From NCBI GenBank assembly GCA_026770585.1, contig MU646365.1, positions 407,466 to 435,652 on the forward strand: a stretch of 28,187 nt of DNA. The letters run 5' to 3'. Below are positions 1 to 28,187 of the stretch, piece by piece. Numbering within the stretch: the stretch's first letter is position 1; the number at the start of each line of letters is the position of its first letter. The notes under the pieces are model-generated. The model saw nothing but the letters and a program-made list of their open reading frames with translations, was not told the origin of the DNA and searched no databases. This DNA comes from Baffinella frigidus. Taxonomy: Eukaryota > Cryptophyceae > Cryptomonadales > Baffinellaceae. A program made the position numbers and the translations under genes.

Positions 1-104
1 AGGGTTTAGGGTTTAGGGTTTAGGGTTTAGGTTTTAGGGTTTAGGGTTTAGGGTTTAGGGTTTAGGGTTTAGGGTTTAGGGTTTAGGGTTTAGGGTTTAG
101 GGTT
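1..104 (+). repeat. Perfect to near-perfect TTTAGGG telomeric array
   Basis: About fifteen head-to-tail TTTAGGG units, with one slipped unit near position 31. This is the plant/alveolate-type telomere heptamer. The G-rich strand runs 5' to 3' into the window, whereas a chromosome end on the left would show CCCTAAA on the + strand. It is therefore probably an interstitial array or an inverted or joined end, not a terminal telomere. Confidence 0.95.
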
Positions 105-301
105 TCACGAGCTCGAGCAAAGCCCACCCCAGAAGGCTCTTGGTGTCCTCGTTTGGCGTGGTTTCGCGCACGAAAGTCCTGGTTTGGGGTTTTGGGTTTG
201 GGTTCGGGGTTCGGGGCTCGGGGCTTGGGGCCTGTGGTCCGGGGTTCGGGGCGTGGGGTTTTGGGCTTGGGGCGTGTGGCTTGAGGTGCGGGGTTCGGGG
301 G
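105..301. repeat. Degenerate G-rich telomere-like sequence, 3' flank of the gene
   Basis: After a short unique stretch (105-175) the sequence is made of GGGGTTT/GGGGCTT variants. It lies just beyond the stop codon of the minus-strand gene. No AATAAA-type polyadenylation signal is evident. Confidence 0.6.
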
Positions 302-3674: not shown

Positions 3675-6600
3675 AGCGAGGGATGAGGAGGGGTGAGGGG
3701 GGCTGCCTGTGCGCGTCGACGGATTTGTTGCAGGTGTCGACTACCGGACTGTACCGCACGTGCCCGCATACCTGCCAACAAGATTCCGGTTTAGGGTCTG
3801 AGGTTTGGGGTTTGAGGTTTGGGGCATACACGAGATAGGATCTTGGGTTCTGGGTTTTGGGTGTAGGGTTTCGAGTTTTCGGGTTTGGGGTTTGGGTCAC
3901 GTGACGACGCCTGACCCCAGAGTCCTACGGCGTTGTTGAGGGTTTGAGGTTTGAGGTTTTGGGTGTAGGGTGTACGGTGTAGGGTTTAGAAAGGTGTGGG
4001 GTGCAGGGTTCCAAACCGAGAGCTTGTTGAGGATGGTGTCCCAGCCACTCTCTTTCTCCAGGTCAAACGCAGACCGCAAAAGCAAACCGGAGTCCCCTGT
4101 ACGAAAGACACCCTAAACTTGAAACCCCAAACCCTGAACAGCATACCGAGAGGTTGAGGAGGATGGTGTCCCATGCGCTCTCTTTCTCCAGTTCCGTGCG
4201 TCACGCAAGCTCTTCCAGGACGAGACAGGTTCAACAGGAAGCTTCTCGAGGACGAAACAGGTACAAAGGGATGATATTCGAGGACACGACAAGTCACGAG
4301 GGGCGTCTGACCGAGAGGTTTGAGAGGATGGTGTCCCAGGCGCTCTCCTTCTCCAGGGCCGCAACGGCTGCCAGGATCGTGCGTGCTTCCAACACCTGCT
4401 TCCAGGTTTCGGGGTTAGCAGACTATTCTCAAGTTGACATGGGGTTGGAAGACTATTGTCAAGTTGACATGCTGGGTCCGTGGTGCAAATATGTTAACTT
4501 TAGGGCGGAAACAAGTGAGACCAAATCAGACTGAGACAGAGCTAGGAGGATGGTGTCCCAGGCGCTCTCTTTCTCCAGGGTCGAAACGGCTGCCAGGATC
4601 GTGCGTGCTTCTAAAACCTGCGAGCATTTTGGGCTATCTTACGTTTTTTTTTTTTGCTATATTGAAGCTATGTCGAGGCCAAGATAGCAAATTCCACAAG
4701 TCAGATAGTACGAAATGGTGGTGCAAGGATGGTGTGCCAGGCGCTCTCCTGCCAACACCTGCAACATCGTTTATGCTATCTTCAGAGTAGAATTTGCTAT
4801 CATAGCCTCGGTATATCTCTAGTATAGAACACACTCCATCCCAAAGATAACCCACCCTAAGATAACACGGCTGCCAGGATCGTGCACGACTCCAACACCT
4901 GCTTCCGGGTTTTGGGGTGAGGGTTTACAAATCATAATTCCTGTAATGCACTGCAAGATAGTCGCTATCATGCCCTGGCACACGGTTTCCGCGCGTTTGG
5001 TGGACGCGACCACACCCCTCCAACGCGTTCAAACGCCAGTAAACACGCGTCGAGTGTCGGACACACTCGCGGCGACTAAACGCGCGTGTTTTCGAAAAAC
5101 ACGCGCTTGAAAAGGCGTGGTTTCGGGGGGCACGTCCGAAATGGAGAGGCACTGCGCGCAGTAGCGCTGTAACTCTCGAGTTGGCCAACTATCCAAAAGT
5201 TGACGTTCTGGGTTCGTGGCACGAATCCGTCAACTTGAGTGCGGGAAAGAGCCCAGTATCACCCAAATAGTGGGTCCAAATATACTGAGTGAGCTCTAAA
5301 AGCCAACAAGAAGCACGCGATTTCGGGGATGTGACCTCGGGCACGTCCGAGATAGAATGGCACTGCGCGCAGCAGCGCTGCATCGTGCGCACGTCGTCTT
5401 CCTCTATCCGGACGCGACTCCTCCCATCACGTCCGTCACGTCCTTCCTCAAGACGGACGCGACTCGTGTCGTGTCCTTCCTCAAGACGGTCGTGACCCCC
5501 TTCATGTCCTTTCTCAATCCTGACGTGACCCTCGATGCTGACGATACCCACATCACATCCTTCCTCAGTACGGACGTGCTCTCCGTCGTGTCCGCCGCCG
5601 CGTCCAGAAAACGCGACGCTTGGGAGGTCGTGTCCTTCCTCAATCCGGACGTGAACCCCGTCGTGTCCGGAAACCGCGGCGGTTGGTACGTCTTGTCCGG
5701 AAACCACGGCGGTTGGGAGGTCTTGTCTGGAAAACGCGGTGTTTGAGAGGAGCTTATTGTTACATATGTCGCGCGCGACTCGGAGAGCGTTCACGACGCG
5801 ATCGAACCTGCGGTACAGGTTATGGATTATGCACAGGTTATGAGGTTAGGGTTTGGGGTTTGGGGTTTGGGGTTTGGGGTTTGGGGTTTGGGGTTGGGGG
5901 TTGGGGGTTTGGGGTTTGGGGTTCGGGGTTTAGGGTTTGGGGTTTAGGGTTTGTGGTTTGTGGTTTGTGGTTTGTGGTTTGGTGTTTGGTGTTTGGGGTT
6001 TGGGGATCGAACTAAACCCTAAACCCTGAACCCCACCCAAGGTTCGCGCAAGAAAAATCAGGAGTTGGGGTTTACATCGCGTTCTGGATTATGCACAGGT
6101 TATGGGTTTGGTGTTTGGGGTTGGAACCTCGCCCACCACGCCACGAGGACCTCGCCAGGATCGACCTGGGTTAGGGTTTAGGGTTTAGGGTTTAGGGTTT
6201 AAGGCTTAGGGCTTAAGGTTTTGGGCTCATCACATAGCACGGCTGCGGAAAGCCAGGGGTTATGTTTTCTGATTTAGGGTCTAGGATTTATAATTTATGG
6301 TTTATGGTTTAGGGTTTAGGGTTTATGGTGTATGGCGTACCATACGGGGAGGAATGACGATCTCCTCCTCCCACCTTGCCTTCAGGCCTTCCGCTGAATT
6401 TGCCGAGAGAAGGCTGACAGCCGAGCGTTCGTCGTTCGGGAGGTGGAAGAACTCGCGCACCACTTCCCGGTCTTCGACTGGCGCCTCCGCGATTAGAAGG
6501 ATGAGATCCGAGGCGCACCACTCCGTGCGGAGCAGAAGGCGCTGTTGTTGGGTGTGGAGTTCAGTGCTCAGGGAGTTGAGGAGTCATACGTTTTTCATGT

Positions 6601-9600
6601 AGTTTTCATACTTTATTCATACGTGACTCATAAGTTGTTTATACGTGTTTTTATACGTTTTGGGAGGATGAGACTCCGTGCGGAGTAGGATCCGCTGGAC
6701 GGCGCGGGTTAGGCTTCATAGATTAGGTTGGGGGTTCAGGGGTCAGGATTTGAGGGTTGAGGGTTTATGCTTGAGGGTTGCGGGGTGACGGGTGACAGGT
6801 GACAGGTTGAGTGATGAGGTATTTGGGTTGAGGGATCAGGGGCTTGCCTGGACGGCGCGGGCAGCCGCGACGCCGCCGCGCACGTTGGGCGAGTCGCTCA
6901 GCCCGCAGCACACCTGACCCGCAACGATTCGTGTCAGCACACGCAACACGCAGCGTTTCATGGACGTGGAGGGAACAGCACACGTAACACGAACCGGTTC
7001 GTGGATGCTGACGCATTAGCACAGGAAACACGCAACGGTTGGGTGAATCGCTCAGCGCGCAACACACATGCCACATATTTCACGGCTGTCAAGATTTGCC
7101 CCGATTTTTACCCCAGGGGAGGGGTCGATTTCCCTTGTACAGATCTGCTCCAAACCACACAGCGGACTTCGAAGGGATTTCGAATAACCCCTAAGCGATA
7201 AGACCTAGGACCCTACGGTAGGAAACCCGTAGGGTCATAGGGGGGTTCCTACGGATAAGGTAGCGGAAACTCGGCCCCAAATGGGCCAAAAATCCCTTGG
7301 AAGCCCGCTGTATGACAACCAAACGCAGCTCACCTGGAGGGACGCGAGGAACACTACACCCCAGACCTTAATCCCTAATCCCTATACCCTAAAACCCAAA
7401 CTCTGATCTTAAACCCTAATAACTAAACCCCACACCCAATACACCAAACCCTAATCCCGAAAGCGCACCTGGAGGGATGCGAGGAGCACGGGGTATGACG
7501 ACCAGTGTCTCGGTTCATTGTCATGCTGTGGGAACGGCACACGCAACACGCAACAATTCGCGGATGTGGTTCGTAACACGCACCGTTTCACGGACGTGGA
7601 GAGAACAGCACACGAAACACGCAACGATTCGCGGATGTGATTCGGGGTACAACACATGTTACACGCAACGATTCGCAGTACACCTCGAGGGATGCGAAAA
7701 GCACGGGGTACGACCACCATTGCCTCGCAGACGTGACTCGGGGTACAGCACACGTAACACACAACGATTCGCGGATACACTCAATAACACGCACCGTTTC
7801 ACGGACGTGGAGAGAACAGCACAGGGAACACCCACCGGTTGACGGATGTGACGCGTGCTTTAGTGTTTAGGGTTTGAGGTTTTTGGTTTAGAAGCACACC
7901 TCGAGGGATGCGAGAAGCACGGGGTACGACGACGCGGACCCACCCACCATTGCCTCGTGCCGTAGATGTGACTTGGTGACTTGGTGTACAGCACACGAAA
8001 CACACACAGGTTCATGGCGATACTCAATAACACGCACCGTTTCACGGACGTGGATAGAACAGCATACGAAACACGCAACGATTCGCGGACGTGACTCGGG
8101 GAACAGCACACCTCGAGGGATGCGAGAAGCACGGGGTACGACGACGCAGACCCGCCCACCATTGCCTCGTGCCTGCATTCAGGGTTTAGGGTTTAGGGTT
8201 TGGGGTTTGGGGTTTGGGTTTGGGGTTCAAGAGTTTGTGGTCGGGATTCCAGAGTCTAAGTGTGGGGGTGTCGAGGATTGAGGGATCAGGTGTTGAGGGT
8301 TGAGGGATCAGGGTTCAGGGGTTTCGGGTTTCGGGTTTCGGGTTTAGCTCCGGGGTTTGGGTTTGGGTTTGGGTTTGGGGTTGGGTCAAGGGTTTAGGGT
8401 ATATGGTGAAGAGTTTCGTGCCTAAGGAGGTCCGCAATGTGCTGCATAACAGGCGAGCCTGTGCACACGCGCAAGTGCAAGGGATCGCAGGGTTTGGGGT
8501 TTTGGAGTTGATATTTGTTGTCCGCAAAGAGCGAGGTGAGGGTTGAGTGTTTCGGAGTTCGGGGTTTGGGTGTTGAGAATTGTTGTTTTTTGTTTTTGTT
8601 TTTCGTTTTTTGTTTAGTGTTTTGTGATTTGGGATTGGGGTTTAGGATGTGGTGTTTCCCTGGAAATTAGGGGTTAGGATGAGGGGTTTGCCTGAGGAGG
8701 TCGGCAACGTGCTGCATAACAGGCGATCCCTTGCACTTGCGCGTGTCCTGGTTTCGGGCTTCGGGTTCAAGGTGTAGAGTTTAGAACCCTGAACCTTGGG
8801 ATTCAGAACCCTGCACCTGAAGGTTTAGGGTTTAAAATGTAGAGTTTGAGGTCAAGGGTTTAAGGTTTGAGGTGTAGGGTTGATGGTTGATGGTTGAGGG
8901 TTGCTCGGAGCACAAGCGTACTTTGTGGTTGAGAGGTTAGGGTTGAGGGTTGAGGGTGAGGGTTTAGGGCTAAGGGTTGAGAGTTTAAGGTTTCGAGTTC
9001 AGAGCTCAGGGTTGCGGGTTTAGGGTTTAGGGTTTACAGCGACAAGCGAAGTGAGCATGGTGGTTCAGGAGTTAGAACCCCAAACCACGGGATTGATGGT
9101 CTAGCATTTGTTGTTGAGAATCCTATACCTTAGGGTATAGGATTCTATACCTTAGGGTAGGGTTTAGGGTGTAGGGACTACCGCGAGCAGCGAGGTGGAA
9201 TGGTGGTTTAGGAGTTCGAACCCAAACCTCAGGCTTTATGATTCATAGTTTAGTGTTGAGAATCCTGTGCCTTAGGTTGTAGGGTGAAGGGTGTAGAGTT
9301 TACAGCGATCAGCGAGGTGAGGAGCGTGGTGCGCCGTTCCGTCGTCATCCTATCGACCTGGAAACCCTACACCCCACGCCAAACCCTATACACCCCACGC
9401 CAGGTCGGCATTCGGGTTCAGGATTTAGAACCCTCAACTTGGGGGGGTTGGGCTTAGAGATTAGAACCCCAAACTTGGGGGGAAGAACCCTAAACTTGGG
9501 GGGTGTTGGGCCTAGAGATTGGGGGCTACCGCGAGGAGCGAGGTGAGGGTCGTGGTGCGGCGTTCCGTATTCATCCTGTCGACCTGGTGTGGAGTGAAGG

Positions 9601-12600
9601 GTTTGGGGCCAGCATGTCAACTTAAGAATAGTCCGCCAACACCAGCATGTCAACTTAAGAATAGTCCGCCAACACGAGTGGGAGACCTTGACCAGCGTGT
9701 CGCGGGTGTTTTCGACGGCCGTGTTGGTCACGTACCGAACTCCTGGTACAAACTACCCGTACCGCACTCAACTTCTGGTACAAACTTTCTGTACCGTACC
9801 AAACTCCTGGTACGAACAATCTGTACCGAAAGTAATAAAGAAAGAAGAAGAAGTGGAACTTTATCAGCGTGTCGCGGGCGCGTCCGACCGCGGTGTTGCT
9901 CACGTTCGCCTCAAAACCCTCAACCCTCAACCCTGAACCCTAAACCCTAAGACCTAAACCCAGTCGTTTTGACAGACTGTTCTCAAGTTGACAGTCTACG
10001 TTTCCGGTACAAATCCGTCAACTTTGGAGCGGAAAAGAGCCCTTGGAGTAAAAAAATGGAGTGAAAAAGAGGGTTATGGGTTAGGGGAGTGGACCTTGAT
10101 CCGTTGGTCGCGTGCGCGTTCGGCCGCCGTGTTGGTCACGTTCGCCTCAAAACCCTAAACCCTAACCCCAGTCGGATTGACAGACTATTCCCAAGTTGAC
10201 AGTCTGGGCACCCGGGCTCTTTTTCGCTCCGAAGTTGACGGGGGTGTACCACACACCCAGCATGTCAACTTAACAATAGTCAGCCAACCCGAGTGGGGTA
10301 TTGGACCTTGAGGAGTTTGTCGCGGGCGCGTTCGACCGCAGAATTGGTAACATTCGCCTTATACCTGGCGTTTAGAGTTTAGGGTTTAGGGTTCAGGGTC
10401 AAGGGTTTGGAATCTGGGGTTTGGGGGGTGGGGTTTCGGGATGAGGGATTTGGGTGCAGGGTTCACGGTGGCGTTGTGCCTGTGTGGGGGGTTGGGATTT
10501 AGGGTTTAGGTTACTGTAAAGCAACTGATGCAGAGAAACCCCCAAAACCCGCACTGTTAGTCACGTTGGCCTTATTCCTGGTGTCTAGGGTTTCCGGTTT
10601 GGGATTGGGGTTTCGGGTTTAGGGATAAGCGTTTGTGAATTAGGGTTTCAGATTTTCGGGGTACGTTCGCCTTGAACCTGGCGTGGGGGTTTGGGTTTGG
10701 GTTTTGGGATTAGAGATTCGGGTTTGGAGGCTCGGTGTTCGGGATCAGGGTTTAGGGTTTAGCGTTCATGGATCCGGGTTTAGGGTTAAGGATTTAGGGT
10801 TTCAGGATCAAGGTTTAGCGTCCAGGATCTACACTTGACGGTTCAAGAATCAAGGTTTGGGGATTAGGGTTCAGGGATTAGGGTTAAGGGTTGCACCGTC
10901 GGAGGTGCTTGAGCATCTTTCTGACATCGTCCTCGTACTCGAGCGAGGTCGCCGCGTCGATCGCCTCTTTTGCCTGTTTAAAAACGGAGTAAAATTTACA
11001 TGGCGCAAACACGGGGTGAATTTACCCCGCGCAAACGCAGGGTAAATATTTGTACTGCGAAAACGTGGGGTAAATTTTCACTGATCAAACGCGGGGTGAC
11101 ATCGTCCTCGAACTGGAGTGTAACGCGGGGCAAGTTTCCAACGCCAGAACGCGGGGTTAATCTTACCCCGCGAGTTTTGATTTAAAAAGCGGGGTGATGT
11201 TTCTCTGCGCGAACGCGGGTGCAGGATTGAGGGGATGAGATGGGTGGGATGGCTTGCATGGGTGAGGCGCTTGGAGTTGACGAGGCGCCCGCACTTCCGC
11301 ACAGTCTCGCGGAGGGAGTGTGAGGTGTGCGTTCCCGATGACAGGCGCGACTCTGCTTCCAGCCTGTTGGTGGGCTTAGGCTTTAGGACCAGCAAGCGCT
11401 CTTTTCAGAAGATGCTGCTGCGGCGGGCCCGTGAAACCCCTTTTCGAGAATAAACCGTATGAACCGCGCCAGACCCGTCCAAACCGCTCAGCAGAACAGT
11501 CTTTCAGAGGGAGTGTGAGGTGTGCGTTCCGGAGGAGAGGCGTGTCTCTGCCTCCAGCCTGTTTAGAGTTTAGGGTTTAGAGTTTAGGGATTAGGGTTAG
11601 TGTTCAGGGTTTGGGTTCGGGAGTGGTTTGGGGTGTGTTTCGGGTTTCTTGCTTCGGGTTTCGGGTTTCGGGATTAGGGAATGAACCTTCGGGTTTCTGG
11701 CTTCGGGCTTGATTTCGGGATGAGGGTTTCGGGTTGACCACACTAAGGGTTAGGGTTAGGGCTGAAGAATTGGGGTGTTGGGGTTAGGGGGGTTGTGTTG
11801 GGGTTCGAGGGTAGGGATGACACTGCGAATCCGGATATTTTGTAAAAGTCAACACCCCCACAAATCTGTCAACTTTAGAAACGAGATACACCATCGGTCC
11901 ACTTCGATTTTTGATTTGCGCCTTGAGTTGACTAATAAAAAACTTCGCCCTGGCAGTGGATTAGGATGTCGGGCGTACCACGCGCGGACGGTCCTGCGCT
12001 TGCCCATCGGGGGGAACACTGCCGACATCTCCGCACACACCTAGTTTGAGGGTTTAGTGTTTAGGGGTTGGGGTTCGGGTGTTGGGTCTAGGTTTGAGGG
12101 TTCAGTGTACAGGGTTCAGGGTTCAGGGTTCAGGGGTTAAAGCTTCCCCATCGGGGAGAACACTGCCGACATCTCCGCATACACCTGGGTTTGGAGATTG
12201 GGGGTTATGGTTTGGGGTTAGGAGTTAAGGTTCCGGGTTCCGGGTTCCAAGTTCCGGGTTCCTGGTGTGGGGTTAGGTGTTAGGGTTCCGGGTTCCGGGT
12301 TCCGGGTTCTGGGTTCCTGGTTTGGGGTGCGGGGTTCAGGGTACAGGGTTCAAAGCTTCCCCATCGGGGGGAACACAGCCGACATATCCGTGCACACCTA
12401 GTTGCAGGGTTTCGGGTTTCGAGTGTGGGGTTCAGAGGTCAGAGTTTGGGGTTTAGGAATCAGGGCTTAGGGTTCGGGGTTTAGGGTTTAGGGTTTAGGG
12501 TTTAGGGTTCTGGGTGCAGGGTGCAGGGTGCAGGGTGCAGGGTGCAGGGTGCAGGGTGTAGGTTCTGGGGTCTAGGGTTAAGGGTTCAAACCGACAGGGC

Positions 12601-14038
12601 CGCCGCGTCCGTCTCCTTATCGACGATCATATCCGCGAGTATGGCCTGGGGTGGGGTTTGGGGTTCAGGGTTCAGGGATGAGGGTTTAGGGATTGGTGAT
12701 TAGGGATTGGGGATTCGGGTTAGGGGACTTCGGCGCACAGTAACATGTCCAAACCGTAGGGTTTAGGGGTTGGGGGTTAGGATTACCGCCTCGCCACGCT
12801 CCTCGGAGGTAACCTCCCCCATCATTTCGTACCTGGTTTCGGGGTTGGGGTTTAGGATTTTGGGGTTTGGGGTCTGGGGTTTGGGGTTTGAGGTTTGGGT
12901 TTTGGGGTTTGGGGTTTGGGGTTTGGGGTTTAGGTTTTGGGTTTTGGGGTTTGGGGTTTGGGGGGTAGGGTGTGGGGGTTACCACGCCCACAGCGCCTCT
13001 CGCAGCATCGGGCACGAGATAAGAAGACAGTCCACCTGTGCAGGCAATGGATTTAAATGATCATTTAATTAAATGATTTAATTTAATTATTCATTGTGCA
13101 AGGTTGGACACACCGAGAGCGGGGTTGGGCACATAGAGTGCTGGGTTGGACACACTAACTGCGAGGTCAGCCACACACAGCCAGCAGCGGGCACGAGATT
13201 AGGAGGCAGTCCACCTGAAGGGTTCAGGATTTAGGGTTTAGGGTCAGAAGACAGTCCGCCTGCCCACCGTGGTGTTAGACTGCGAGATCGGACACACTAA
13301 CTGCGAGGTCCGACACACCGAGTGCGGGATTGGACACACTAACTCTAGCTCTGCCCGACTTTTATTCTGGCTCGTCCTAAAGGCTTTCTTTTCTCCCTTT
13401 TGTACTGAATTTCTGCTCTTAAATACATTTGAGGACTAGCCGAAAAAAAACTCAGACAGTGCTAGTAACTGTGCGCCAACCGCCACAACATGCCCCCGGA
13501 AGAGTCTCGCCTGAGTGAGCACAAGATCGGCACCGTTAGGAGATTCGAAAAGACGAAGAAAGAAGACATTCACCTGGCCGCTGCGGTAGCGCCGCATCGT
13601 GACGATCCTCGGGTTGGGCACACCAAGTGCGGTGTTAGACACACTAGCTGCAAAGACAGACACACCAACTCCGGGGTGGGACACACCGAGTCGAGGGTTG
13701 GACACACTAACAGAGATCAGAAGGCAGTCACCTGGCCGCCGCGGAAGCGCCGCATCGTGACAATGTTTGCCAGGTCCGCTAACGCAGCCCGCACCTTCGC
13801 CGGAGGCACTTCGAGCGGCCCAGGGTCCAGAGTCCGTTTTGTAAAGTGCGAAGCCTCGACAAAGTCGACCATCACGTCTGTGAACGAGAGGCCGGTCTGC
13901 ACCTGGGGTTAGGTTTCAGGGGTTAGAGTGAGGGGTTTGGGGGTTGGAAGAAGGAGAAAGCCAGGCAGCGCCTGTTTCTAAAACGGTTCGTGCAAAGAGT
14001 AAGGTCAACTGGGCGACCACTTTAGAATGCTTTTGTAA

Positions 14039-14098
<60 letters not shown>

Positions 14099-17000
14099 AT
14101 CGCCCCGTCCCCTCTCACTCTCTACGTCTCACTAGCTTCGACGAAGTCCACTATCACGTCTGTAAAGGAGAGCCCTGTCTGCACCTGGTTTGCAGTTTTA
14201 GGATTTAGAGGTTTGTTTGGGGTTTGGGGTTTGGGGTTTGGTGCTTGGTGTTTGGTGTTTGGAGTTTGGTGTTTGGGGTTTGGGGATAGGGGTTGCGGGT
14301 TGGGATTGAGGGTTTGGAGTTTGGAGTCTGGAGTTTGGTGTGTGGTGTGTGGTGTTTGGTGTNNNNNNNNNNNNNNNNNNNNNNNNNNNNNNNNNNNNNN
14401 NNNNNNNNNNNNNNNNNNNNNNNNNNNNNNNNNNNNNNNNNNNNNNNNNNNNNNNNNNNNNNNNNNNNNNNNNNNNNNNNNNNNNNNNNNNNNNNNNNNN
14501 NNNNNNNNNNNNNNNNNNNNNNNNNNNNNNNNNNNNNNNNNNNNNNNNNNNNNNNNNNNNNNNNNNNNNNNNNNNNNNNNNNNNNNNNNNNNNNNNNNNN
14601 NNNNNNNNNNNNNNNNNNNNNNNNNNNNNNNNNNNNNNNNNNNNNNNNNNNNNNNNNNNNNNNNNNNNNNNNNNNNNNNNNNNNNNNNNNNNNNNNNNNN
14701 NNNNNNNNNNNNNNNNNNNNNNNNNNNNNNNNNNNNNNNNNNNNNNNNNNNNNNNNNNNNNNNNNNNNNNNNNNNNNNNNNNNNNNNNNNNNNNNNNNNN
14801 NNNNNNNNNNNNNNNNNNNNNNNNNNNNNNNNNNNNNNNNNNNNNNNNNNNNNNNNNNNNNNNNNNNNNNNNNNNNNNNNNNNNNNNNNNNNNNNNNNNN
14901 NNNNNNNNNNNNNNNNNNNNNNNNNNNNNNNNNNNNNNNNNNNNNNNNNNNNNNNNNNNNNNNNNNNNNNNNNNNNNNNNNNNNNNNNNNNNNNNNNNNN
15001 NNNNNNNNNNNNNNNNNNNNNNNNNNNNNNNNNNNNNNNNNNNNNNNNNNNNNNNNNNNNNNNNNNNNNNNNNNNNNNNNNNNNNNNCAGGGTCCAGGGT
15101 TCAGGGCTCAGGGTTCAGGGTTTAGGGTTTAAGGTTTAGGGTTTAGTGTTCAGGGTTCAGGGTTTAGGGTTTACCATGCGCGTCCTCAAGCGCCCAGAGC
15201 AGTCCCTGATTTAGGGTTTAGGGTTGAGGGTCTAGGGTTTAGTGTATCAGATTTGATGTTTAGGGTTCAGAGGGCAGCGTGCCGCAAAAAGGGGATTCAG
15301 GGTTTAGGTTAACAAAGTGGACACAGAGGGTTTAGGGTTTACCCGCTCCCCCCCGAGCAGCTCCGCCGCGGTCTCCCCACAGGACACGATCACTTCGTGG
15401 GTGTTCTTATCGCCGCGGAGCCGGACGCGACTCAGTGCGTAGTCCAGGTAGCGCGGGTTGCCTGCGGGTGGTGGTTAGTGTTTAGGGTCTGGGGTTCAAG
15501 AGCTCAAGGTTTGAGGATCTAGGGTGTATGGTGTAGGGTGTGGGTTGTAGGGTGTGGTGTGCAGGGTGTAGGATTCGGGTTTAGGGGTTACGTGCATGCT
15601 GCAGGGTTTAGGGGGTAGGGTTTACGGTCTACGGTTGAGGGTATAGCGTGTAGAATGTAGGTTGTAGGGTGTAGGGCGTAGGGTGTAGCGTGTCGGGTGT
15701 AGCGTGAAGGGCGTAGGGTGTAGGGTGTGGGGTTTCCTGCGTCGCGCTTGGCGATGAGGGCCGCGACGTCCTGCTCCGAAAGGCTGAGGGCGAGGCCCGC
15801 AGATAGATGTACAACCACGTCCCGCCTGCCGGGGTGTAAAGCAACTCAGGTCTCAGAGGGGTCACGGAACCGAACATCTTTATCCATGAACCAGGCGGGT
15901 TCTCAAGATCCTCCACCCCCCACCCTCAAACCCTAAACCCTGAAGGGCGAGGGACAGGCTTTTGGATACGTGTATGACCACGTCCCGCCTGTAAAGCGGC
16001 TGGATCCAGGGTCTACAGTAAAAAACCCTCTACGCTTTTAAGGTTCAGGGTTAACAGAAACCTTAGGCAGGGTCCAGGGTTTAGAGCTGAAACCCCCCTC
16101 AGGGTAGGGAAAGTGGACCTGTCGCGCTTGTCGAGCGGCAGCACCGTCTGGATCCACGTCTGGCGGGCGTTGCGGTCGGGGGTCTGGCAGCTCATCACCA
16201 CCAGCACCCGCCCGCTTCCGTGTAGGTACACCTGCAAACATGAAATATGAAATGAATATTGTATAGAAATCCGTGAATATTGTATAGAAATCTGTGAACA
16301 TTGTATATATTAAATCTGTGAATGTTGTATATAATATATTGGATGTTGTGGATGTGAATGTGTGGGGTTGGAGTGTAGGGTTAAGGGTGTAGGAGTGAGG
16401 GGGTCTGGCAACTCATCACCACCAGCACCCGCCCGCTCCCGTGTAGGTACACCTGCGAATATGAAATATGAAATCCGTGAATATTGTACAGAAATCTGTG
16501 AATATTGTATATATTAAATCTGAAAATGTTGTATATAATATATTGGATGTTGTGGATGTGAATATGTGGGGTTAGAGTGTAGGGTTAAGGGTGTAGGAGC
16601 GAGGGGGTCTGGCAACTCATCACCACAGAACCCGCCCGCTCCCGTGGAGGTACACCTGACTCAGGGTTTAGGATGTGAATGTGGATGTGACAGCATCTGG
16701 ATGCTAATGAATACGAATGAACACAGGATGCATGAATTGAAGATGGACGTGAAGGGGGTTTGGCAGCACATCACAACCAGCACCCGCCCGCTCCCGTGTA
16801 GGTACACCTGCGAACATGAATTTTGAATATGTGATTATTGTGCATACAATATAAATATACTGAATATTGTGAGTGTGAATGTGACAGTGGACTGTGAATT
16901 TGAATGTTAATATGCATACGAATATACATATGAATACGAATTGGTTGGGGGTCTGGCAGCTCATCACTACAAGCACCCGCCCGCTCCCATGGAGGTACAC

Positions 17001-20000
17001 CTGGTTTGGTGTTTAGAGTTATCTAGGACCTGTATCGAGAGTAATAAAGAAGAAGAGTTAGAGTTGATAGACGCAGGGTTGGTTGGTTGGCTCAACGAGA
17101 GCAGAAAGATGCTCTAGAGAGTCACCTACCCAGAGTCATATATCACCGAGTATACAACGTATATTCAGATTGGGGGTTGGGGATCATATAAATTGTGATT
17201 CATTTACATATGAAAAAAATATGCATGTGAATTGGTTGGGGTTGTGGCAGCTCATGACTGCCCACTCCCGTGGAGGTACACCTGGTTTGGTGTTTGAAGG
17301 TTAGGGATTGGGGTGAAGGGTTTAGGGTGACCACCAGCACCTGTCTGCTCCCGTTGTGGTACAGTCGCGAACATGAATGTGGATGTGAGGGTTTAGCCTA
17401 TGCACGTGTTGAGGGTTTAGGGTTCGAGGTTTAGCGTTTAGGGGTTAGGGTGTAGGGTGTAGGGCTTAGGGTATAGGGTTTAAGGTTCAATGTGCAGGGT
17501 TTAGGGTTCAAGGTTCAGGGTTCAGGGTCAAGGGTTGAGAGTTTAGGGTGCAGAGTGTAGGGTGTAGGGTGTAGGGTTTAGGATTGAGAGTTTCGGGATT
17601 GGGGTTTAGGGAAGAATACCGTATTGCCAAGCGTCTCTGCCTCGTCCTCAGAAAGCCCTGGTTTAGGGTTTAGGGTGTAGGGTTTAGGGTTAGGTTTTAG
17701 TGTTTAGATTGTAGAGTGTAGGTTGTAGGGTGTAGGTTGTAGGGTGTAGGGTGTAGGGTGTAGGGTGTAGAGTGTAGAGTGTAGAGTGTAGGATGTAGGG
17801 TGTAGGGTGTGGGATGAGGGTTTAGGGTTTACGATGCACAGATCAGGAATTTAGGTACTCCTTGGGTTGTTTTAGGGTTTAGGGTGCATGGTTTACCGTC
17901 GACGACAATCACTAGCCGCTTGGCCGAGGAGCGTGCAGCCCTGGGCACCAGGTTTAGGGTTCAGGGTTTGGGGTTTGGGGAATTAGGGTTTGGAGTGTAG
18001 GGTTTAGAATCGCTAAACCCGACCATTTGGGGGTTGGGGTTTAGGGTTCAGCGCAACGCTTGAGCCGTCGTCTGTAAGCCCGTCAACGGGTTCAGGGTTT
18101 GGGGCGTCGGGTTTAGGATCAGGAGCCCTAAACCCAATATTTCGAATTTAGGGTGCAGGTTTCAGCGCAACACTCGTGTCGCTGGGGTTTGGGATTGCTG
18201 AAAACCCGTCGACGACAATCACTAGCCGACCATCACTAGCTGCTTCGCCGAGGAGCGTGCAGCCCTGCGAAGCAGAGTTCTGTTTCAGGATATAGGGTGT
18301 GGTGTGTAGGGGTTAGTGTGTGCGGTTCCAACCCTAAACCCTAACCCCCAAACCATCCGCCCTGCGCACCAGGGCTCGATTTCAGGGTTGAGGGTATGGG
18401 GAATTAGGCATTGGGGTTTAAGGATTAGGGTTTGGAGTGTAGGGTTTGGGATCTGTAAATCTGAACGGTTGGAGGTTGGAGTTTGGGGTTGAGCGTAACG
18501 CTCGTACCGTTAGGGCTTAGGGTTTCTGAAAGACCGTCGATGACTATCGCCGGCCGCTTCGACGAGAAGCGTGCCGCTCTGGTGGTTTGGGGATTAGGGG
18601 CGAGGGTTGAGGGATTGGGGGATGAGTGTTCAGTGTTGAGTGTTTAGTGTTGAGGGTTTAGGGTTTAGGGTTTAGGTTGGGGGTTCAGGGTTTGGGGTGT
18701 AGGATTTAGGGCCCGAGACCCCCAAAAATATATATTCATGGTTTAGGGTTGAGGTGGTTCACCTGGTGCGGATGGTTTCCCAAAATTCTGAAAAATAGTT
18801 GCAACACCCCCGCAAGCGATTCAATCGTACTGTCTCCTCCAAGGGTTGGGTTTCAGGATCCATAACCACAATTGTGGATGCACGATACCTGGTGCAAGTG
18901 TACTAAGTACACTACTAAGTGTACTAGGTACATTAATAAGTGTACTAAGTACACTACCAAGTACACTACTAAGTTTAATAAGTACACTTCTAAGTGTGCT
19001 AAGAACATTAATCGGGGTACTAAGTGCACTAGTAACCTGGTGCGGATCGCCCCGGCAAGCGACTCGATGGTACTGTCTTCTCCGAAGATTAGCTCCCGCG
19101 CGAGGTACTGCCAGATGTCCTGCTCGGTAGGGTTCAGGGGGTTTGCTAAAGTCAACCCCCGCATAAACTTGTCAACTTCAGACGAAAATTCGCGCAGCGA
19201 CAACGCCGTTGTTGACACGTTTCCATGAGGGTTGGCTTTGGCAAAAAAAATCGGCTGGCAGTGAATGGGTTAACGGTTTGAAAATGGCTCAGGGCTCGGG
19301 GTTAAGGATTTAAGGTTTGGAGATGTGGCCCCGGCAAGAGATTCAATGGTACTGTCCTCTCCGAAGAGTAGCTCCCTCGCGAGGTACTGCCAGATGTTCT
19401 GTTGAAAGGGGTTCATTGCTCAGTGCTCGGGATGGTTTAGGGTTTCAGGGTTTAGGGTTTAGGGTCGAGGGTTGAGGGATCAGGGTTCAGGGTTCAGGGT
19501 TCAGGATCTAGGGTTCAGGGTTTAGTGACTCGATCGAATGGTCCTCTTCCAGCTCCCGCGCGAGATATTGCCAGATGTCCTGCTCAGTAGGGTGTGGCGT
19601 TTAGTGTTCATAGTTCAAGAGGGTTTATGGTATAAGGTTTAGAGTTTAGAGTTTGGAGTTTAGGAGGGTTTAGGCTTTAGGCTTTAGGGTTTAGGGTTTA
19701 GGGTTTGGGGTTTGGGGTTTGGGGTTTAGGGGTTAGGGGTTACGGTCGTGGAGTTAGGGTTCAGAACCTGTTCGGTATGCCAAGGCATCTTGAACAGCAC
19801 CACAACCTCAAACCCCTCCTCCTCTCAGGGCTTATGGATCAGGGTTTCCGGTTTAGTGTTAAGGAGGGTTTCCGGGGGAGTGTCTGGGGTTTAGAAGGGC
19901 TAACGATTCACGTTTCAGGGATTAGGGTTTACAGTTTACGGTTTTGAGGGTTTACGAATTAGGGTTCAGAACCTGTTCGGTATGCCAGGGCATCTTGACC

Positions 20001-27142: not shown

Positions 27143-28187
27143 CTGCCGTCCACAATCGTGTTGGTTAACTCACGGGTTTGTACCAAGGGGCCCCCCGATT
27201 TCCGGCGATTCGTGGTACAAAACGCTAACGACCAGGAAAAACGCGAATGATGCGGTAAGGGTCGTCCCCCTTGCCCCGCGTCGCCCGTTTCTTCCCCAGC
27301 CGTCCACATTCGGTTAGGGTTTAGGGTTTAAGGTTTATTCGTGATTGTTAAAACGCGGTTTTGTACCAAGGGCCCCCCGATTTCCGGCGAACCCTGGTAC
27401 AAAAAGCGGGTTGGCGAAACGACCCCAAATAATCCGTAAAGAGGCATACAAATCCGGTGGGGGGGGTTGAACCAGCTCTCTCGCGCCGATTGCCGCGGTA
27501 GAATGTAGGGCTTATTCGTGATCGGTTCCTTGCGGGTTTGTACCAAGCCCCCCCCGACTTCTGGTACACAACGCAGGTTGGCCAGAATCCCCAATAACCC
27601 GTTAACGAACCAGGGCGACGGCGAGGCGTAGGAACGCGCGGGAGCTCTCTCTCACTGATTTAAAATTTATCGTAATCGCTGTCTCTCTCGCCATTTTAGG
27701 GGTTATTCGTGGTAGGTTACTCGCATATTTTCGCCAAGGTTCCCCCGATTTCCGGCGACCTCCTGGTACAAAAAGTTGAGCCAAACGGCCCTCAATAATC
27801 CGTTAAGAGTCGGGGAAGAGAGCGGGCCAGAGCGTTGGCGAGGCGTGGGAAGGCGCGGGAGCTCTCTCTCGCTGATTGCCGCGGTATGGTTTAGGGCTTA
27901 GGGTTTATTCGTGGTCGATCCATCGCGGTGTTTGTACCAAGCCCCCCCCGACTTCCGGTACACAACGCGGGTTGGCCAGAATCCCCAATAACCCGTTAAC
28001 GAACCAGGGCGTCGGCGAGGCGTAGGAAGGCGCGGGAGCTCTCTCGCGCTGATTGCCGCGGGTCCGATATCGCCTGCGTTTCGGGTTTCGGGTTTAGAGT
28101 TTGGGGTTTGGGGTTCAGGGTTCAGGGTGTAGGGTCTAGGGTGTTGAGGTGCATGCCTCAGGGGTTAGGGGTTAGGGGTTAGGGGTT
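27143..28187. repeat. About 180-200-bp satellite with hairpin cores, plus end repeats
   Basis: Five units, with TTTGTACCAAG (or variant) at about 27177, 27360, 27538, 27730 and 27931. Each has a CCCCCCGA-TTCCGG core, usually a converging GGTACAAAA, then AATAACCCGTTAACG and GGCGCGGGAGCTCTCTC. 28079-28187 returns to TTTCGGG/TTTAGGG and GGGGTTA repeat. No gene is convincing here. Confidence 0.75.

Follow-up and report, generated by a model that had tools for sequence, protein, structure and literature searches.

Local tandem duplications in a minus-strand gene of Baffinella frigidus appear to have left half-exons within its introns, and new introns probably arose when complementary halves were spliced together, with the old exon-exon junction persisting in or near the new intron. 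The origin of the copies by local tandem duplication is likely and can be held with high confidence, and several introns appear, with moderate confidence, to be younger than some of the duplications.

The window, that is, the whole stretch of 28,187 nucleotides that was analysed (G000:C63:407466-435652, where contig C63 is MU646365.1), belongs to a genome of 382,457,362 bases in 1364 contigs and is spanned by this gene, whose exons are short. The rebuilt part of the gene comprises E11-E35 only, with exon numbers as in the first-pass annotation, and all of its splices are predicted from frame and splice signals (Table 1). The reading frame runs consistently over E11-E35 and breaks once, from E22 to E23, where a missing exon may be hidden in an N gap (14363-15087). 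Donors in the 24 modelled introns are GT in 20 cases, GC in three (after E28, E32, and E34), and GA in one (after E20), and G is the first base in 23 of the 24 exons downstream of E11. A nearly complete E31-like exon at 9305-9357, preceded by AG and followed by GT, may serve as an alternative or additional in-frame exon.

Protein searches, which required shared 5-residue words and similar length, returned no homologue at E<=1 for the 655-aa model (8000 candidates sharing most words scored) or for a 186-aa composite (783 candidates). Pfam gave no domain in the 655-aa model or in a rough 365-aa draft, PDB gave no match for the first 300 aa of the predicted protein, and Rfam gave no match inside the window. 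On the same contig, a partial eukaryotic SSU rRNA gene fragment was observed at 1479-1970 of stretch L029 (C63:514216). A paralogue search with a 272-aa part (E11 and E13-E21) produced 11 matches, all inside the window. Because these searches found neither homologue nor paralogue, no ancestral, still fused form of E17/E18, E23/E24, or E34/E35 is seen elsewhere.

Table 1. Gene model, exons, and exon copies on the minus strand (window positions; n+m nt, lengths on the two sides of a junction).
Feature	Position	Strand	Details
Gene model E11-E35	6341..22115	-	25 exons, 24 introns; splice sites and frame
E16 5′ copy with 10 nt resembling E15 end before it	19551..19589	-	weak
Fused E17/E18 copy A, intron 16	18525..18574	-	40+10 nt, 40/50 identical
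Fused E17/E18 copy B, intron 16	18200..18228	-	22 nt of E17 + 7 nt of E18, 28/29 identical
Fused E17/E18 copy C, intron 16	18066..18088	-	8+15 nt, 19/23 identical
Exon E17 (RAARSSAKRLVIVVDG)	17897..17940	-	donor GACG|GTAAACC; splice sites and frame
Intron 17	17658..17896	-	239 bp, 81% telomere-like (CCCTAAA in sense strand)
Exon E18 (LSEDEAETLGNT)	17620..17657	-	acceptor AAACCAG|GGCTTTC; splice sites and frame
Six upstream 5′-part copies of E19	16399..17363	-	the four with the highest similarity (90-96%) stop at E19 position 54-58
Exon E23	13732..13902	-	
Intron 23 start, copied from the E24 start and worn	13710..13731	-	GTGACTGCCTTCTGATCTC vs GTGGACTGTCTTCTTATCTC, one gap
Fused E23/E24 copy, intron 23	13560..13606	-	33+15 nt, 43/48 with one gap (90%)
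Fused E23/E24 copy, intron 23	13246..13272	-	13+14 nt, 23/27 (85%)
Exon E24	12983..13035	-	
E32 copy with 6 nt of E33	8416..8459	-	weak junction copy
Three E33 copies (7900-7960, 7684-7717, 7469-7502)	7469..7960	-	
Exon E34	6848..6913	-	GC donor CCAG|GCAAGC
Fused E34/E35 copy, intron 34	6673..6708	-	14+22 nt, 32/36 identical
Exon E35	6341..6541	-	

Two junctions provide strong evidence for intron-free copies. The E34/E35 copy that the first-pass annotation had reported is confirmed, and its junction (first right-hand base 6694) is at the midpoint of the 306-bp intron 34, with 153 nt to each splice site. The E23/E24 copies, absent from that annotation, are also strong, and in their case the start of intron 23 itself resembles a worn start of E24. 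Chance was rejected as the source of the E34/E35 and E23/E24 copies. Junction copies as a set exceed both the false-pair and the shuffled controls described below. The evidence at E17/E18 is of moderate strength. Here the first-pass annotation held that intron-free copies lie upstream of E17 and that a 239-bp intron now separates the two exons; all three copies and the intron were recovered at its coordinates. Counting against intron gain at this junction, the E18-side parts of these copies are just 7-15 nt long and mutually related. The other side of copy A carries 6 nt resembling the end of E16.

Other junctions are less clear. For the E32/E33 copy that had also been claimed, the E32 part (38 nt) is present, but the E33 part amounts to 6 nt (GCACGA), and E33 comes second among 25 exon starts as a match to this flank. 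Owing to this rank and to the short stretch past the junction, E32/E33 alone does not rise above control. Both the bases after the three E33 copies and the first bases of intron 33 resemble the start of E34 (GTGTGCTGCG). The E15/E16 copy is weak because its own intron end fits better than E15. The E15/E16 and E33/E34 sites are suggestive only, and a 27/28 junction site (19562) looks like chance. An identical inverted 24-nt copy of the E32 start was also seen at 8465-8488.

The first-pass annotation had proposed a comparison of gapless junction-spanning alignments with shuffled introns. As controls, the 24 real pairs of adjacent exons were compared with 576 false pairs built from the same exons and with 60 dinucleotide-shuffled introns. 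In ungapped alignments with a score of at least 6 (E31 being 3 nt short), real pairs gave 6 sites in 4/24 pairs and false pairs 5 sites in 5/576. Gapped alignments in which each side contributed 8 nt or more gave 8 sites in 6/24 real pairs and 34 sites in 28/576 false pairs; at 12 nt or more on each side these became 3 sites in 2/24 and 9 sites in 8/576. Shuffled introns gave a mean of 0.48 and a maximum of 2 at the 8-nt threshold, so the 8 real sites stand above the shuffled control. Several false pairs score high because the exons mostly start with GT or GC and have G as their last base, and several of their matches are real copies whose flank fits a second exon by chance.

The flanks of the copies provide a further comparison. 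Among the 14 copies that reach an exon 3′ end, the next exon ranked first among 25 exon starts in 6, against about 0.6 expected by chance, although these six (E17 twice, E23 and E30 once each, E33 twice) are not independent copies. The own intron fits better than the next exon for the E30 copy (7 vs 4), the two fit about equally for the E33 copies (own/next 7/7, 6/8, and 6/7), and neither fits the bases after the E31 copy. For E11, E12, and E15, the own intron is clearly the best fit, which indicates that these copies were made after the intron existed. At the other end, the previous exon ranked first in only 2 of the 18 copies that reach an exon 5′ end (a count that omits the complete E33 copy at 7960); both are E16 copies, for which the end of the own intron is an even better fit. 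These mixed flanks indicate that some duplications preceded the introns and others followed them, and that only a minority of the copies bears on intron gain.

A resemblance between intron starts and the start of the next exon is found on average (20,000 permutations, p 0.00055), and by eye it is clear for I23/E24, I33/E34, and I15. Counting against the intron-gain model, a score of at least 5 is reached by only 1/24 intron starts (I33/E34), compared with 5/552 unmatched combinations, and intron ends match upstream exon ends only weakly (p 0.078, 2/24). The junction sequence is AG|GT at E23/E24 and E33/E34 and AG|GC at E32/E33; E17/E18 and E34/E35 are not of the proto-splice type.

The position and shape of the copies point to how they were made. 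The introns of the gene contain 36 exon copies (E<0.01), all within 1.2 kb of their own exon and 35 on the same strand, the inverted E32 piece being the single exception; the fused E34/E35 copy falls outside this set because neither of its halves alone passes the threshold. The same-strand copies comprise 17 upstream copies with the 5′ part only, 10 downstream copies with the 3′ part only, 4 cut on both sides, 3 complete copies, and a single rule-breaker, the upstream piece of E17/E18 copy B. Expressed for the 28 copies cut on one side, upstream copies keep the 5′ part in 17/18 cases and downstream copies the 3′ part in 10/10. The exon of each family was taken as its most complete copy, a choice that does not fix the cut side of the others. 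Such a half-exon pattern results when the breakpoints of a tandem duplication fall inside the exon on one side and in the adjoining intron on the other. Comparison of the window with itself gave 69 direct and 0 inverted local repeats at the threshold used. Thirteen other stretches of the genome (7 further ones being all N) contained 137 direct repeats and 48 inverted repeats, a less pronounced excess of direct repeats than in the window. A self-comparison of the window with 68 rows brought out an identical 27-nt repeat (11461-11487 and 24626-24652), its sole far repeat, at a distance of 13 kb, and a 104-nt stretch at 27541-27644 that recurs at 27935-28038 with 96% likeness, with TTTGTACCAAG at several places nearby.

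The copies do not seem to have decayed freely. Mismatches between copy and exon fall at the third codon position in 110/179 cases, and among the changes found in a single copy 32 are synonymous and 34 are not, where free decay predicts about 25% synonymous; this excess counts against the proposed model. Possible reasons are a period of use of the copies or their descent, through unequal exchange, from an allele that had already diverged.

A second sequence component of the introns is telomere-like. With a mask for degenerate TTTAGGG-type repeats, in which sense-C denotes CCCTAAA on the sense strand of the gene, the introns of E11-E35 are 37.4% sense-C and 3.6% opposite, a ratio of about 10:1. 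The exons hold 0 sense-C bases in 1962 and 12 in the other orientation. The adjoining 20 intron bases are at least half telomere-like at 16/24 donors and 14/24 acceptors, and this filler may supply splice signals (GTAAACC, CCAG|G). CTAAAC within the repeat is what we take to be a branch-like sequence. Telomere arrays found no support as a general breakpoint, with just 8/36 cut ends adjoining the repeat (sense-C mask only). A nearly perfect TTTAGGG array occupies window positions 1-111, in the interior of the contig (position 407466 of 1,017,466) and not at its end. Some introns also hold the motif CAAGTTGAC with its inverse about 33 nt apart in a MITE-like arrangement (window 5196-5237, 9984-10025, and 10231-10272; L056 115-456). 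Within the window the motif has 18 matches with at most one mismatch, compared with 6.4 expected, and a related pattern occurs in 6/56 loci.

Kinase genes extend the comparison beyond this gene. From 108 kinase matches, 15 stretches with several exons were taken as the sample, on 15 contigs and with 33 exon segments; a single one of these loci, L052, lies on the contig of the window. Telomere-like sequence makes up 17.5% (sense-C) and 2.0% (opposite) of the 15 loci, with sense-C the larger in 14. A telomere-masked search identified 16 exon copies in 9/15 loci, all on the same strand, and all nine loci are on other contigs. The claim that intron gain was active inside one gene is in this respect too narrow. 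Nine copies are upstream and keep the 5′ part, one is downstream and keeps the 3′ part, and 6 are inner pieces, such that the half-exon rule is obeyed by 10/10 one-side-cut kinase copies. When telomere-like sequence was left unmasked, matches numbered 60 on the same strand and 21 inverted, the majority being repeat hits within L052 and L053.

Among these loci is a GSK3-like kinase (L041, L056). Its exons read LYMYQ..KPQ, NLL..VP, ESN..GAT, DYT..IIK, and VVGTPT.., separated by four introns at KPQ|NLL, G|ES, GAT|DY, and IIK|VVG, the second exon being followed by a GC donor; the splices were predicted from frame, splice signals, and relatives. The introns contain upstream 5′ parts and downstream 3′ parts. 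The closest database relatives (P0001-P0009, 90-94% identical) run uninterrupted across the first three junctions, as do 11/11 aligned relatives, though the database may favour uninterrupted versions, and the best match, P0001 (94% identity), is uninterrupted at all four. P0002-P0008 diverge from each other directly after NVDQ, as would a genomic ORF read into an intron. A search of viral_contigs found no GSK3 relatives. This comparison suggests that the GSK3-like gene has four lineage-specific introns, for which gain and loss are both possible.

The most probable course of events begins with local tandem duplication, which, with spacings mostly of about 125-330 bp, would repeatedly copy exon pieces along with adjoining intron. 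A breakpoint inside an exon would leave a half-exon next to the intact exon, an anatomy visible in the window. A half-exon with one splice site would presumably be ignored and decay in the intron. In some cases a 5′ half and a downstream 3′ half could jointly carry the whole coding sequence, and with GT or GC after the first half and AG before the second, the halves may be spliced. The original uncut exon would then decay inside or beside the new intron, as an intron-free junction copy such as those of E34/E35, E23/E24, and E17/E18. Splice signals may have come from duplicated coding sequence at E23/E24 and E33/E34 (AG|GT), and from telomere-like repeat at E17/E18 (GTAAACC and CCAG|G).

The first-pass annotation had left two origins open: introns younger than the duplications, or spliced sequence copied back. 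The former is supported for E17/E18, E23/E24, and E34/E35 and possible for E15/E16 and E33/E34, while most copies provide no evidence for gain. The latter, in which spliced RNA was reverse-copied and then pasted back into introns, has the existence of intron-free copies in its favour. However, retro-copies would be expected to be dispersed and in either orientation, and a cDNA origin of the copies is rejected because 36/36 are local and 35/36 on the same strand. Furthermore, several copies carry flanking intron, the one-side-cut copies are cut as tandem duplication predicts in both the window and the kinase genes, and none spans two junctions by 8 nt or more per side in a search of single exons and exon pairs, which leaves reverse copying scarcely credible. 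Exact loss from the copy of an intron present at duplication is compatible with data from one genome, but it can be argued that nothing would make an unused copy lose introns exactly at the splice sites, at three junctions, and we consider it very improbable.

Plain duplication of exon and intron, in which the introns are old and the junction matches reflect chance or boundary similarity (AG|G, GT), fits the copies of E11, E12, E15, E19, E27, and E28, which carry their own intron. The E32/E33, E30/E31, and E33/E34 sites can be read in the same way, and the 28/576 false pairs show that 8+8 nt is attained without a real junction. As a full account it is nonetheless unlikely, since E34/E35 (14+22 nt) and E23/E24 (33+15 nt) exceed what it allows. 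The next exon also ranks first for 6/14 copies, and junction matches are in excess over the controls. Insertion independent of the duplications, whether through a mobile introner or through addition of telomere repeats at a DNA break, would account for introns that are 37% telomere-like with a 10:1 orientation bias that recurs in kinase loci, and for the dispersed inverted-repeat motif in several of them. The introns that best fit a coding origin, 23 and 33, are instead only 6% and 2% telomere-like and start like the next exon, and insertion is accordingly rated as rather unlikely.

A broader form of the exon-splitting reading is tentative, and we hold it to be possible but doubtful: exon splitting through complementary half-exons would be ongoing across the genome, with a degenerate telomere repeat, in CCCTAAA orientation, as a ready-made filler that brings a donor-like GTAAAC, a branch-like CTAAAC, and an acceptor-like CCAG. 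Because introns 23 and 33 are not telomere-rich, the two halves of this reading, splitting and filler, rest on different introns. If it is true, almost any duplication inside an exon could become an intron, and the 10:1 strand bias would be a mark of selection for the spliceable orientation.

Among known systems, the case is best read as what may be a dense variant of the tandem-duplication route. Intron gain by tandem duplication is reported for a potato RdRp gene (PMC4974935) and fission yeast (PMC3629103) and has been reviewed (PMC3443670). Few gained introns have known source sequences, according to two of these reports (PMC4974935; PMC3629103). Worn source copies beside exons, at differing stages of decay, could allow intron birth to be ordered stepwise. 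Within titles and abstract openings, no description was found that combines telomere-like repeats, intron gain, and tandemly duplicated exon fragments. As in the tandem-duplication cases, a duplicated exonic segment would give the splice sites, exon-like sequence lies in the intron, the protein would be unchanged, and proto-splice sites are AG|GT or AG|GC. Unlike in those cases, several introns of one gene would be involved here and exon copies occur in genes on other contigs, the copies are mostly half-exons, with two or more fused junction copies in some introns, and certain other splice sites seem to derive from the telomere-like repeat.

Introners, as introduced for Amoebophrya and elsewhere (PMC7789003; PMC9860276), share with this case lineage-specific intron gain in protists and non-GT donors, but they consist of related introns at dispersed sites, frequently with inverted repeats, whereas the fragments here are local, direct, and exonic. 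Interstitial telomeric sequences likewise place telomere-like repeats away from chromosome ends, going by their summaries (PMC7215372; PMC6410037); the repeats described here differ in being degenerate, intronic, and strongly biased in gene orientation. The intron-rich chlorarachniophyte Amorphochlora also features lineage-specific gains at AG|G and simple repeats in introns; according to that report, the repeats are [AT]n and the gained introns are probably not introners, with their source left unclear (PMC12730881).
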